In this document: positions 47,565-54,716 of the stretch, piece after piece
How positions within the stretch are numbered: position 1 is the first letter of the stretch
How the letters are laid out: every line of letters starts with the position of its first letter
From: a virus
Strand: one strand, 5' to 3'
Length of the DNA stretch: 64,000 nt
Virus record (IMG/VR): IMGVR_UViG_3300008448_000036
Span: 1 to 64,000 of that record
Translations under genes and position numbers: made by a program
Notes under the pieces: generated by a model
Database searches by the model: none
The model's input: the letters and a program-made list of their open reading frames with translations, nothing else
What the model was told of the DNA's origin: nothing

Positions 47565-49559
47565 TTATCTCCTTAATATATTAAAATGATAAGGAAACAT
47601 TACATTTGTATTAAAAGTATGTCCCCCACCGGCCTTAACTTCTGCAGCTTCTGCACTTGAATCTAAGTCATTATCACCAACTGTGCTTACATGATAACCA
47701 AGCCTGTGAGTGTGTAATATATTTAATTCTAAAGATATCTTAAATGATTGAAAACCTATCATATCTGGTCTAGAAATTGTAGCAGCGGTTACACCAGTAT
47801 TTGAATGAAAGTGAAAAATAGGAGAATTCATATCTGGCTCATATTTTACTGATGGTATGTAACATAATAGTCCGTCCCTATCACTTTTTGGATCTGTATT
47901 ATCTATTAAATTATTAAATCTTACCTGCATTAGAGGTGGAGATGAAATACTATATACTTGTAAACCAGCTGAAAGTGTATATGTTGGGTACATGTAGGTC
48001 ATCAATTTTGAAAGTTTTTGATGATTGATATAACCCTCATTATGACTAGCAGCAGGAACACTAAAACTTACATTAATTTTTCTAGATGTTCCCTTATATT
48101 GTGCAGTTGGATCCATCCTACCAAAAACTTTTTCCGATGACCATTCTGCATCAACGCTATCAGAAAAACTTTCTATAAATGCTCTAAATGCAACCTTTTT
48201 TCCTGTTGCAATGTGAGTAAAAGCTATTTGAAGATTTGGTCCTTCAGCATTTGTTCTTGTTTTAGAAGCTGCTCCCGGCGCTTCTCCTATTAATAAATTT
48301 TGTTGTCTTCTTGCTTCTCTTAAAGCTGCTAATTCTCTTCCGAGAGCCTCTCTTTCTGCAAGGTTACTAGCTCCTTTTATTCTGGCTTTTAATAGATCTT
48401 CTGCTGCATCTAATCTTTTAGTTCTTTCTTCTTTTGTTTCACCTTGATACGCAAATCCAGCTGCCTCTAATAATCTTACTTGTCTATCAGTTAATCTTGC
48501 AGATGTTGGTTCAGCTTTTACCGCAGCAAGAACTTCAGCCTTGTCAAAACCAGCTACAGAAGGGTTAGAAGGATCAGAAGCAGCAGCAGCTTGTGCTGTG
48601 CCGGCTCTTCTTGCTCTTGTTTCTGCTACGGCTGCATCTTGTGCTGCCTTTATTGCTTCAGCATCAGCTTTTGCCTGTGCATCTCCAGCATCTAAATTTA
48701 CTTCTCTTCCTGACGCTCTTTGCTCGGCTGCATATTTTTCTGCAGCGGCTTTTCGCGCTGCCTGTTCTTCTAATACTGCTTCAGCAGCAGTTGCTTGTCT
48801 AATTTCTATTGCTAGTCTTGTTTGCTCATCGTCTAAATTGGGGTTTCTTCCGGCAGCTTTTTCTTCTAGAACAAATTCTTCTGCTGCTTCTTTTCTAGCT
48901 GCATCAACTTCCGCTTTTGCTCTAAAATCGCTAGCAGCTTTTTCACCAGCGGCTCGAAGCCTTTTTTGAGATTCTTCTTCTTTTAGAACGTCTTCTGGTT
49001 TTTTACCAGCTGCTTTAGCTTCTGCATTTATTACTTCTTCTTCTGCCTTTGTAGCCTCAGTTCTAGCAGTTTTTTCTCCTATTGCGCGTCTACCAGCTTG
49101 TGCTTCGGCTAGATCTTCAGTAGCATCTCTAGCACCTTGACTAGCACTACCTAATACTTCAGTAGCTACTCTTTCTGCCTCTCTCCTTGCTTGAGCAGCT
49201 GCTAATTGATCTCCACTCTTTTCTGCGGCTTCAGCAGCTTGTTCGGCTTCTCTTATTCTTGCAGCATCTTCTCTTGATATTTTTTTTCCATTAATAACAA
49301 CGGAACCATCATCTAGTTCTGGTGGAGTGGGAGCATCAGTTTTCACTTCAACTTTTTTTTCTGCCTTTTTACCTGCGTCCTTACTGCCTTTTTTACCCTC
49401 TTTACCACTACCCTTTCCTGATCCCTTACCAGATCCACTACCTGTTTTACTCGATGCTTTTCCACCACCAGTCTTAGCAGCTGGTTTAGCTTCCGTTTTA
49501 GCAGCCGGCTGACCTGGAGATTTAATTGGTTCTGCGTGTGATGTTCCGTTGTGTGCCAT
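47565..49559 (-). CDS. Tail/baseplate protein with long Ala/Glu/Lys-rich N-terminus (664 aa)
   Basis: The first 420 residues are low complexity: a Gly/Ser/Lys linker (SGSGKGSGKGSGKEGKK) and a long charged helix rich in Ala, Glu, Lys and Arg, likely an extended coiled coil. The C-terminal 230 residues form a folded beta domain with FRAFIESFSDSVDAEWSSEK, VFGRMDPTAQYKGTSRKIN and LMTYMYPTYT, which resembles conserved tail or baseplate domains of T4-like aquatic phages. It directly follows the tape measure gene (8 bp), so a tail-tip or hub role is likely. Confidence 0.65.
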   Translation of the reverse strand: MAHNGTSHAEPIKSPGQPAAKTEAKPAAKTGGGKASSKTGSGSGKGSGKGSGKEGKKGSKDAGKKAEKKVEVKTDAPTPPELDDGSVVINGKKISREDAARIREAEQAAEAAEKSGDQLAAAQARREAERVATEVLGSASQGARDATEDLAEAQAGRRAIGEKTARTEATKAEEEVINAEAKAAGKKPEDVLKEEESQKRLRAAGEKAASDFRAKAEVDAARKEAAEEFVLEEKAAGRNPNLDDEQTRLAIEIRQATAAEAVLEEQAARKAAAEKYAAEQRASGREVNLDAGDAQAKADAEAIKAAQDAAVAETRARRAGTAQAAAASDPSNPSVAGFDKAEVLAAVKAEPTSARLTDRQVRLLEAAGFAYQGETKEERTKRLDAAEDLLKARIKGASNLAEREALGRELAALREARRQQNLLIGEAPGAASKTRTNAEGPNLQIAFTHIATGKKVAFRAFIESFSDSVDAEWSSEKVFGRMDPTAQYKGTSRKINVSFSVPAASHNEGYINHQKLSKLMTYMYPTYTLSAGLQVYSISSPPLMQVRFNNLIDNTDPKSDRDGLLCYIPSVKYEPDMNSPIFHFHSNTGVTAATISRPDMIGFQSFKISLELNILHTHRLGYHVSTVGDNDLDSSAEAAEVKAGGGHTFNTNVMFPYHFNILRR

Positions 49560-52386: not shown

Positions 52387-52392
52387 ATATAC

Positions 52393-52425
52393 AAAAAAAG
52401 TGAGTGGAAATTCCACTCACTTTAT
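52393..52425 (-). terminator. Rho-independent terminator after the tail assembly gene
   Basis: Arms AAAGTGAGTGGAA and TTCCACTCACTTT (52397-52423), followed by TTTTTTTG on the minus strand. It directly follows the stop codon of the frameshift-extension reading frame, which is what one expects if that frame is really translated. Confidence 0.85.
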
Positions 52426-52628
52426 TATTTGCTCCTACTGGATGCTTTCTTAATTTGATCCGCTTCTGCTTTAATTTGTTCTGTTAGTTTTTCTACAAAC
52501 CATTTTCTCAATGGTACTGGTAAATTGTAACATTCAAATAAACTCCAACCACCATAGTATTTGAGATAAAAGAACTGCTCATATACATTTTCTTGGTATT
52601 CATCACTTAGGCCAAAAAAATTCAGCGG
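52425..52628 (-). CDS. Frameshift extension of the tail assembly protein (67-codon frame)
   Basis: This open frame begins right after a TAA and has no ATG before its conserved-looking part (GLSDEYQENVYEQFFYLKYY, GGWSLFECYNLPVP, LRKWFVEKLTEQIK). It overlaps the 3' end of the 287-aa gene at a run of seven T (52614-52620 on the minus strand), where a +1 or -2 shift from the 287-aa frame joins AEFF to GLSDEYQ. Tail assembly proteins just upstream of tape measure genes are classically expressed this way. It ends one codon before a terminator. Confidence 0.65.
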   Translation of the reverse strand, partial: PLNFFGLSDEYQENVYEQFFYLKYYGGWSLFECYNLPVPLRKWFVEKLTEQIKAEADQIKKASSRSK

Positions 52629-53466
52629 TTAGAGGCACCTCCATAACCTCTTCATGATCACATGATTTGCAAGTGAAAGTATTTTTTAAATCTAATCCTG
52701 GAATTCTTTTATCATATTCTTTTCTTAGGAATCTTGAATCCGACGCAGGCATAACCTCTAATGCTTTTTCAATGATTGCTCTATCAAATACTCCATTTAT
52801 TGAAACAACTAATAAATTTAATTGTTGCATTAATGTCATATTTTCTTTTGTTTTATCCGTTATATACGCAACAATCTTTTTTTCATCATGACCAGATAAA
52901 GCGCGACATTCAATTTTCCAACCAGTAGAAGGTAGATTTAAATAAAATGTTCCCTGTTCAGTTATTTCAGAAACAACTTCTTGATCTTCTTCTAAAGATT
53001 CCTCTAATTTTTCCAAAAGATCAAATGTATATTTTGTTTTAGTCTGGCATGATGGACAAATTATTGATGTTACATAACTTTTTCCATATGCCGAAATTCT
53101 TGCAGAAACTAAGATAGCATTTCTATCAGAAATTAACATATCTCCTGGATTAACGCGTTTATCTACTATAAGAGATTCAAGTAATCTCTCCAAGGCAACA
53201 CCTTTTTTTATAAAAGATCTATTAGTTAATATATCTTCTTCTTTTGCCGTCATCTGTTTTATTTCTACATTAGAAACATCTCTTAAAGGATGACCGTCAG
53301 GATAAAATTTACCTTGTGAAGGCAGTTCTATAAATTCTGTTGGAGCAACAAAATTTAAATTTAAACCACCAGAACTATTTTGAACTTTACTTTCTAAAGC
53401 TAGAATTTCATCATTTTGTTCTAAACTTTTTTTAGATCCCAGTCTTTCTTGATTATTTCTCATCAA
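52603..53466 (-). CDS. T4-type tail/baseplate assembly protein (287 aa)
   Basis: The pattern FIELPSQGKFYPDGHPLRDV, KQMTAKEEDILTNRSFI, DRNAILVSARISAYG and two zinc-like pairs, CPSCQTK and CKSCDHEE, fits the T4 base plate protein family (gp26/gp51-like). It may serve as a tail assembly chaperone because of its place between the tail tube and tape measure genes. It ends with AEFFWPK, where a frameshift signal gives a longer second product. Its stop TGA is at 52603-52605. Confidence 0.8.
   Translation of the reverse strand: MMRNNQERLGSKKSLEQNDEILALESKVQNSSGGLNLNFVAPTEFIELPSQGKFYPDGHPLRDVSNVEIKQMTAKEEDILTNRSFIKKGVALERLLESLIVDKRVNPGDMLISDRNAILVSARISAYGKSYVTSIICPSCQTKTKYTFDLLEKLEESLEEDQEVVSEITEQGTFYLNLPSTGWKIECRALSGHDEKKIVAYITDKTKENMTLMQQLNLLVVSINGVFDRAIIEKALEVMPASDSRFLRKEYDKRIPGLDLKNTFTCKSCDHEEVMEVPLTAEFFWPK
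52614..52620 (-). promoter_or_regulatory. Slippery heptamer for a +1/-2 frameshift
   Basis: TTTTTTT on the minus strand (GAA TTT TTT TGG in the zero frame) at the end of the 287-aa gene. Slipping by +1 gives TTT TTT GGC CTA and enters the frame at 52425-52628. The site is a homopolymer, so slippage in the sequencing could also explain it. Confidence 0.5.
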
Positions 53467-53483: not shown

Positions 53484-54077
53484 TTATTTACCATCGCTAA
53501 CAAGAGTTTGGCCTGCTGCATCATCTAGTGTAGCATAGTCGTATTTAATTGTTACATCTATATTTAATATATCTTCTGCTGAATAGTCTAATGAATCAAA
53601 TTTTACTTCTGTAAATAAACAATTCCATAAATACCAAGTTTCAATGGCAGTACCTCCAGCATCTAGAAGCTTTAAACCTATTGATTTTCCACCAGCGGCT
53701 GACGCGGGAGCCTCTGGTGTACTTGTTGTTCCACTTGTTAATTGAGCGATTGCATTGGCTTTACTTATTGTACCCCATTCATTATCTTTAGTAGGATAAA
53801 TATATCCAGCAGTTATTAGAGCATCAATTAAAGTAGAATCTCCAAGTGCTGCATCGTTTGCTGTAACGGTTGAAGCAAACGTAACTGATATTGGATCCCA
53901 TTCAAGTCTACCTGGATAGTAATAGAAATGATTTAAATATTTATGAGTAACTTCAGAAATTTTCATGGTCGGTCTGGAGGCTTTCTTAAGAGCATATCTC
54001 ATTCCAGCTAGCTTTCCGTCAAATTCCATAACCCATCTATATTGTCTTAGTGGTTCTTTTCCTTCATTCCAAAACAT
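53484..54077 (-). CDS. Tail tube protein, gp19-like (197 aa)
   Basis: The pattern FWNEGKEPLRQYRWVMEFDG, ALKKASRPTMKISEVTHKYL, YYYPGRLEWDPISVTF fits the T4 gp19 tail tube family. The last part, CLFTEVKFDSLDYSAED and IDVTIKYDYA, is the matching C-terminal strand pair. It polymerises into the inner tube of the contractile tail. A second, clearly homologous copy precedes it at 54135-54716. Confidence 0.85.
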   Translation of the reverse strand: MFWNEGKEPLRQYRWVMEFDGKLAGMRYALKKASRPTMKISEVTHKYLNHFYYYPGRLEWDPISVTFASTVTANDAALGDSTLIDALITAGYIYPTKDNEWGTISKANAIAQLTSGTTSTPEAPASAAGGKSIGLKLLDAGGTAIETWYLWNCLFTEVKFDSLDYSAEDILNIDVTIKYDYATLDDAAGQTLVSDGK

Positions 54078-54134: not shown

Positions 54135-54716
54135 TTATGTTGGGCGCGCTGCTGCTTTTGCAACAGCACCAACATTTGATGCAAGTTTTGCAGTATCATA
54201 TCTGATTGTTACTTCAATATCAATAACTTCTTCGCTTTCATAAGATAATTCACCAAATTTAATATTTGTAAAGAATGGGTGAGTTAACGTCCAAGTTTCT
54301 AATGTGGCACCTGCAGCATCAATTTGAATTATTTCTATAGCTCCAACATTTGATGTAAAACCAGCTTTTGAAACTCCTCTTAAAGCACCCGCTTCGGTAG
54401 AAGGAACTATATATCCAGCTGTATCTCCTGATGCTGTTCCCTTTAATATTCTTAAAAGTCTATGATCTAATTTTGGAACCGCAACAAAAGTTACGTTAAT
54501 TGGATTCCATTCTACTCTACCAGGATAATAAAAATTATAGTTTCCAAATTTATGTGTTATGTCTGAAACTTTAAAACTTGGCTTATCTACTTTTTTTAGC
54601 GCATAAGTATATTGATCACCAGTTCCACCACTCTTAGTTTCGTCTTTAAAATTTGGAATATTCATTTTCCATCTATTTTTTCTTAACGGTTCAACTTGAC
54701 CTTCCCAGAATGCCAT
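54135..54716 (-). CDS. Tail tube protein, gp19-like, second copy (193 aa)
   Basis: It begins MAFWEGQVEPLRKNRWKM and shares with the 197-aa copy the segments YALKKVDKPSFKVSDITHKF, YYPGRVEWNPINVTFV, FFTNIKFGELSYESEE and IDIEVTIRYDTAKL. The two copies differ mostly in a central insert. One may be the tube and the other a tube-initiator (like gp54/gp19 stack), or both may form a mixed tube. The gene follows the sheath gene by 44 bp. Confidence 0.85.
   Translation of the reverse strand: MAFWEGQVEPLRKNRWKMNIPNFKDETKSGGTGDQYTYALKKVDKPSFKVSDITHKFGNYNFYYPGRVEWNPINVTFVAVPKLDHRLLRILKGTASGDTAGYIVPSTEAGALRGVSKAGFTSNVGAIEIIQIDAAGATLETWTLTHPFFTNIKFGELSYESEEVIDIEVTIRYDTAKLASNVGAVAKAAARPT

Follow-up and report, generated by a model that had tools for sequence, protein, structure and literature searches.

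In the viral DNA analyzed here, a stretch of 64,000 nucleotides of the IMG/VR record IMGVR_UViG_3300008448_000036 (hereafter the window), a gene situated among tail genes ends shortly after a run of seven T, and a second open frame, which follows a TAA, overlaps the same run. This raises the question of whether the two frames belong to one gene with two products and, if so, by which change of frame the longer product would be made. An earlier note on this DNA had described the arrangement, and the elements it named (coordinates, peptides and the T7 run of the coding minus strand, A7 on the plus strand, at 52614-52620) are all present. Our analysis indicates that the gene very probably gives rise to two gp26-type products through a +1 slip on UUU_U, and that these most likely act as a tape-measure/tail assembly chaperone pair of the lambda G/GT kind. 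The features of the locus are collected in Table 1.

Table 1. Features in and around the two-frame gene of the window.
Feature	Position	Strand	Basis
Tail sheath protein, 993 aa	54760..57741	-	phrog_23 E 2.4e-64, PF17482 E 2.9e-11
Tail tube protein (gp19-like), the farther of two from the gp26-type gene	54135..54716	-	phrog_4542 E 6.5e-27
Tail tube protein (gp19-like), adjoining the gp26-type gene	53484..54077	-	phrog_4542 E 5.6e-25
Zero-frame product, 286 aa, short "G-like" form, T4 gp26 family	52603..53463	-	PF12322, phrog_150
Shine-Dalgarno-like GGAGG, 17 nt ahead of the first Phe codon	52638..52642	-	conserved GAG codon
Slip site TTT TTT TGG (P-site UUU then UGG; UUU_Y tetramer)	52612..52620	-	158/158 relatives
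+1-frame C-terminal extension, 63 codons (second Phe to last sense codon)	52428..52616	-	conservation, selection
Intrinsic terminator-like hairpin and T-run, directly 3' of the extension stop	52391..52424	-	sequence AAGTGAGTGGAATTTCCACTCACTTTTTTT
Probable tape measure protein, 926 aa	49568..52348	-	synteny

The zero frame has an ATG at 53463 and a TGA at 52605-52603. Because this ATG immediately follows the TTG at 53466, the short product is probably 286 aa long; of the 287-aa frame ending in FFWPK that had been noted earlier, the ending stands and the length probably does not. The C-terminus of the product reads AEFFWPK and the protein contains two CxxC pairs. It matches PF12322 (T4_baseplate) over residues 46-285 with E 2.1e-15 and 57.5 bits, against a curated cut-off of 24.5, as well as phrog_150, "baseplate hub" (E 4.5e-19), and by these matches it is a T4 gp26-family protein. 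On the coding strand the gene ends GAA TTT TTT TGG CCT AAG TGA, which with one base skipped becomes GAA TTT TTT GGC CTA AGT. Reading on in this frame to the TAA at 52427-52425 adds about 60 residues, and the longer protein of about 346 aa proposed in the earlier note is found as a fused frame with a computed length of 345 aa. In agreement with the same note, the +1 frame has a TAA three codons ahead of the FF and ends before a terminator-like element; in L003, a contig near-identical to the window, no ATG, GTG or TTG occurs from that TAA through the first 20 extension codons.

When core and extension were modeled separately in AlphaFold2, the core (the 286-aa product) gave a confident model (pLDDT 87) and the extension a model with three helices at moderate confidence (pLDDT 76). 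A Foldseek search of the PDB with the core returned no significant match (best E 0.66; the HK97 chaperone only at E 5.7), and a sequence search of the PDB with the core no relevant one. The extension alone had no significant match in Pfam or PHROG. DUF6760 was considered as its relative and rejected (E 0.087 only, with no mention in the literature searched).

The gene lies between the two tail tube genes and the 926-aa gene, which is the placement among tail genes known from the G/GT class. The 926-aa protein is without a family match in the Pfam and PHROG profile searches and its identity therefore rests on synteny: in Flavobacterium immuto and Listeria LIS04 phages the large gene after the gp26-type gene is annotated as tape measure, and the 926-aa protein gives a weak BLASTP match to the immuto tape measure (E 0.007). 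We regard it as probably the tape measure gene. It is separated from the gp26-type gene and its extension by the terminator, and 30/30 near relatives have a terminator-like element no more than 60 nt away from the stop of the extension. The two gp19-type tail tube genes form a diverged tandem pair. Further along, a 664-aa protein without family match (47565-49559) starts with about 400 highly charged, low-complexity residues rich in Ala, Glu and Lys, followed by an apparently ordered C-terminal part.

A scan of IMG/VR yielded 80 close relatives and a scan with the extension 79 further loci. Together these make 159 distinct loci, 158 of which reach the slip site, the remaining contig stopping short of it. 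TT[TC]TTTTGG is in frame in all 158 (112 distinct). The earlier note had pointed to a run of six or eight T, i.e., one continuous frame, and to a loss of the extension in relatives as observations that would speak against the frameshift. None of the 158 loci has six or eight T or a continuous fused frame, and a +1 extension with the YNLP..LR core is present in 110/110 distinct complete loci. Substitutions in the extension were counted over 1834 pairs of intermediate divergence, which overlap and thus give descriptive counts and not independent events; they fall on +1-frame codon positions 1:2:3 in the ratio 14484:3662:38172. Codon differences in the +1 frame are synonymous in 32460 cases vs. 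12234 nonsynonymous, and the other two frames of the region show overwhelmingly nonsynonymous differences and 4-5 stops per locus. Judged by this pattern, the extension is under purifying selection at the protein level in the +1 frame, and across these relatives the two-frame arrangement is far beyond chance. The conserved site, the extension and the selection on it support the earlier suggestion of a programmed frameshift in a tail assembly gene that neighbors the tape measure gene, and the gene can be placed more precisely in the T4 gp26 family (PF12322). The point of slippage suggested at 52614-52620 coincides with the slip-prone TTT TTT TGG.

Constraint is also seen upstream of the site. 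When the 75 conserved degenerate codon columns are ranked by synonymous constraint, the first five places go to -5, -1, -7, -2 and -4, counted from the first Phe. Glu at column -7 is encoded by GAG in 111/111 cases (34% usage elsewhere), which results in a conserved GGAGG, or AGAGG in a few loci; the spacing of this element, 17-20 nt upstream, is unlike that of the known RF2 or dnaX stimulators. At column -1 Asp is encoded by GAC in 101/102 cases, whereas GAT is preferred elsewhere (68%). The base preceding TTTTTT is C, G or A in 104/104, and the sole T precedes TTCTTT. Since T never stands before TTTTTT, the simplest reading of the non-T base would be avoidance of T_TTT_TTT, the strong -1 heptamer. 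No downstream stimulatory RNA structure was conserved among the relatives. A small hairpin immediately before the slip site, CCGC-N5-GCGG, occurs in 53/84 distinct contexts overall and is conserved in a marine subclade (e.g., L043, L061, L076), with z about -8 vs. column shuffles. It was not taken as part of the general mechanism, because it is absent from the window's subclade and shows no covariation.

The direction of the shift can be read from the variants of the site. At the second Phe codon, 112/112 distinct contexts have TTT, while Phe codons gene-wide are 83% TTT and 17% TTC. The first Phe codon is TTC in 8/112, and the resulting TTC TTT TGG contains a run of four T only, in which tRNA-Phe could move from UUU to the overlapping UUU and no -2 re-pairing is available. 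The cousins in Flavobacterium phages have TTT TTT TGG (29), TTT CTT TGG (27), TTT CTA TGG (3) or TTT CTT TAC (1), with a Y after UUU in every case. Streptococcus phage GXN1 carries TTC TTT CGT and phage LR756508 TTT CTA. UUU_Y is therefore the common denominator of the +1 sites in the window clade and its cousins, and the tetranucleotide UUU_Y(nn) has been reported as especially prone to +1 slips in bacteria (PMC5009743). In the Flavobacterium cousins CUU_UGG might itself serve as an RF2-like slip codon, but the CUA variants argue for the preceding UUU_C. The same downstream frame would be reached if ribosomes slipped by -2, as they do in phage Mu, or if the polymerase slipped on the T7 run during transcription, and seven T are indeed found in the window. 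Yet the extension is kept next to TTC TTT TGG, and likewise in the cousins with TTT CTT TGG and TTT CTA TGG, which preserve UUU_Y without a long run or -2 re-pairing, and this explanation is accordingly very improbable. Of the "+1/-2" shift put forward in the earlier note, the variants favor the +1 part over the -2 part. In a metagenomic contig, a change of frame on a homopolymer may also suggest a one-base assembly or sequencing error splitting a continuous gene. The same arrangement is, however, shared by 158 contigs, some of them variants that lack a long homopolymer, and by isolate genomes (Mel-JY01, immuto phages), and past the site the zero-frame C-termini vary while the shifted frame is conserved. 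The chance of such an error is negligible, and we favor a +1 movement of tRNA-Phe on UUU_Y over -2 slippage, transcriptional slippage and assembly error.

Two further explanations concern the nature of the products. The extension could be a small gene of its own, started by coupling or re-initiation in the manner of the short "gp51" annotations. Such an arrangement has parallels in the distant relatives Cygsa01 and Vibrio D531, where a TAATG stop-start overlap is found and no slip site; in cyanophages an ATG stands 3-4 codons into the -1 frame and the extension is annotated as its own gene, and in the marine subclade of the +1 relatives an ATG lies within the extension. In the window and in 15/31 distinct near relatives, however, no ATG, GTG or TTG occurs from the nearest stop upstream to codon 20 of the extension. 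Moreover, conservation begins at FFG, exactly at the slip site and ahead of any ATG, and a separate gene would leave the invariant TTT TGG and the strong upstream synonymous constraint unexplained. We hold a separate gene to be quite improbable. The frameshift could also be real with both proteins being baseplate hub parts made in a fixed ratio. Some work on T4 places gp26 in the hub (PMC3004832) and databases label the family "baseplate hub"; the same T4 review nevertheless lists gp26 and gp51 as hub assembly chaperones (Table 2 therein), with gp51 absent from the finished particle, and the gene adjoins the tape measure gene in many phages. This alternative appears rather unlikely.

According to the frameshift reading, the gene would make two proteins with a common N-terminal gp26-type domain. 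Most ribosomes would terminate at the TGA and release the 286-aa short form. Some, with tRNA-Phe on UUU in the P site and UGG in the A site, would slip one base forward on UUU_U and read about 60 more codons, producing the 345-aa long form. Both the occurrence of the frameshift in this gene and its rate we infer from the sequence. The short and long proteins would together load the tape measure protein and nucleate assembly of the tail tube, analogous to lambda gpG/gpGT. A chaperone function of the pair is the most likely one, considering the position among tail genes, the two-product design and the correspondence to T4 gp26 (short) and gp51 (long).

The long form appears to be made in several ways across the wider family. 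Besides the window clade, phages of Flavobacterium, Microcystis, Listeria and Streptococcus show the +1 design. A -1 design on T_TTT_TTY/G, with a matching extension, is found in cyanophages and in Aeh1, Vibrio and Rhizobium phages; the phages that have it are S-PM2, Melnitz-3, Desulfovibrio phage 7757, Aeh1, phi-Grn1, VmeM-32, S13 and Rhizobium LG08 and RL38J1, among others. In the cyanophage-type group TTTTTTC is present in 64/64 distinct loci, read as T_TTT_TTC, with the extension in the -1 frame and GGAGGG or GAGGG about 10 bases upstream; the slip-site TTC is the most constrained codon of the gene and the Shine-Dalgarno-like GAG takes third place among 139 columns. In jumbo phage XacN1 a -1 extension goes with T_TTT_TTT. 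In LR756511, Cygsa01 and Vibrio D531 a start codon overlaps or stands next to the stop, and a slip site is absent. The extension of Cygsa01 (L095, about 4309) and Vibrio phage D531 (L343, about 3223) is a separate ORF, by which nature offers an alternative to recoding. In a tree built from 34 core proteins, one side unites the +1 phages with XacN1 and LR756511, and the other the -1, coupled and duplicated types. The +1 type gene with TTT TTT TGG is also seen in contigs binned with Flavobacteriales (L346-L352, bins of Flavobacteriales and others), L352 having TTT TTT TTC instead. These bins give a hint that Bacteroidota are the hosts of some +1 phages, the binned contigs being possibly misassigned.

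The duplicated type is that of T4, in which gp26 and gp51 both belong to PF12322 (E 9e-64 and E 4e-52). T4 has two PF12322 genes, and 14 other records examined have one each; in two further +1 phages the gene lies below the Pfam search threshold and none was scored. The phrog_150 match of gp51 runs to its end (280/282), that of gp26 only to 235/282, and in T4 and Acj9 gp26 is followed by gene 25 without an extension. The gp26 and gp51 proteins of both T4 and Acj9 form one group in the tree, moderately supported at 83/76. For the extension of cyanophage P-SSM5, PHROG 634 ("baseplate hub assembly catalyst", E 2e-29) and the end of PHROG 150 both give a match. With hhalign, the -1 (cyanophage-type) extensions can be aligned to the gp51 C-terminus of T4 at a probability of 91% (E 1e-6), and the window-type extensions to the cyanophage-type ones at 55% (E 1.2e-4), whereas the direct comparison of the window-type extension with the gp51 C-terminus is not significant (probability 0.3%). 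The window gene thus has the gp26-type domain of a gp51-like long form, and its extension reaches the gp51 C-terminus via the cyanophage type only. By its place in the protein and its length, the window extension corresponds to this C-terminus. We consider it likely that an ancestor had a single chaperone gene with a frameshift, of which genes 26 and 51 of T4 represent the two halves. The short/long pair would have been kept while the route to the long form switched (+1 on UUU_Y, -1 on U_UUU_UUY/G, a coupled start, or duplication with in-frame fusion), the presence or absence of a T just ahead of the run going with the direction.

It has been reported that cyanophage gp51 has about 20% of the length of other gp51 proteins, that cyanophage and marine vibriophage gp51 are without the first ~200 N-terminal residues, and that Aeh1 has no gp51, no explanation being given for the last two points (Sullivan et al., 2010, PMC3037559). 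In P-SSM5 (L091, about 4690) and S-PM2 (L339, about 3184) the annotated short "gp51" starts a few codons past the conserved T_TTT_TTC, with a Shine-Dalgarno-like element upstream. The annotated start of the cyanophage protein may be wrong, and a -1 shift probably joins the protein to gp26. The Aeh1 genome (116507-122262, reverse complement; L338, about 3262) contains T_TTT_TTC in the context GAT TTT TTC GAC TGA and an unannotated gp51-like extension in the -1 frame, FFRLTLVNDSVYDLFNVNYEMHKEGWTIEELETTTPFERAIYRTLF; the gp51 reported missing from this phage appears to be present as that extension of gp26. Reading the short "gp51" as a frameshift extension of gp26 would account for the observations on the cyanophage, vibriophage and Aeh1 proteins and, in many phage genomes, would set the annotation right. 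The open-access papers searched contained no report of a frameshift in gp26/gp51. This reading offers a testable claim about T4 and a deep natural series for what sets the direction of a frameshift.

Among known systems, lambda gpG/gpGT and the wider frameshift class around it (Xu, Hendrix and Duda, 2004, as cited in, e.g., PMC5009743) come closest in design. As in lambda, the gene is flanked by tail tube and tape measure genes, with a short protein and a minority extension reached by a frameshift close to the 3' end, predicted in the window from sequence alone, and as in G/GT-type genes in general a slip-prone site in the last part of the gene leads into a conserved extension in another frame. 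Lambda, however, uses a -1 shift on a different site, whereas the extension of the window is in the +1 frame, and the gp26 family here has no detectable sequence or fold relation to the G-T proteins of lambda and HK97: it would work like that class, and homology is not supported. T4 shares the two forms, gp26 being the counterpart of the short and gp51 of the long one, both in PF12322, but has two divergent genes without a frameshift in place of one gene with a +1 shift. Cyanophages P-SSM5 and S-PM2 have the same gene layout and a conserved extension in another frame; they differ in shifting -1 on T_TTT_TTC, which a GGAGGG precedes by about 10 nt in the manner of dnaX-type sites, and in being annotated as two genes. 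Listeria phage PSA provides a precedent for +1 shifts in phage structural genes, although there they occur in the capsid and tail shaft genes on a proline codon. Finally, as in RF2 (prfB) and at UUU_Ynn sites, the P-site tRNA would re-pair one base forward, the A site of the window gene holding UGG and not, as in RF2, a stop codon.
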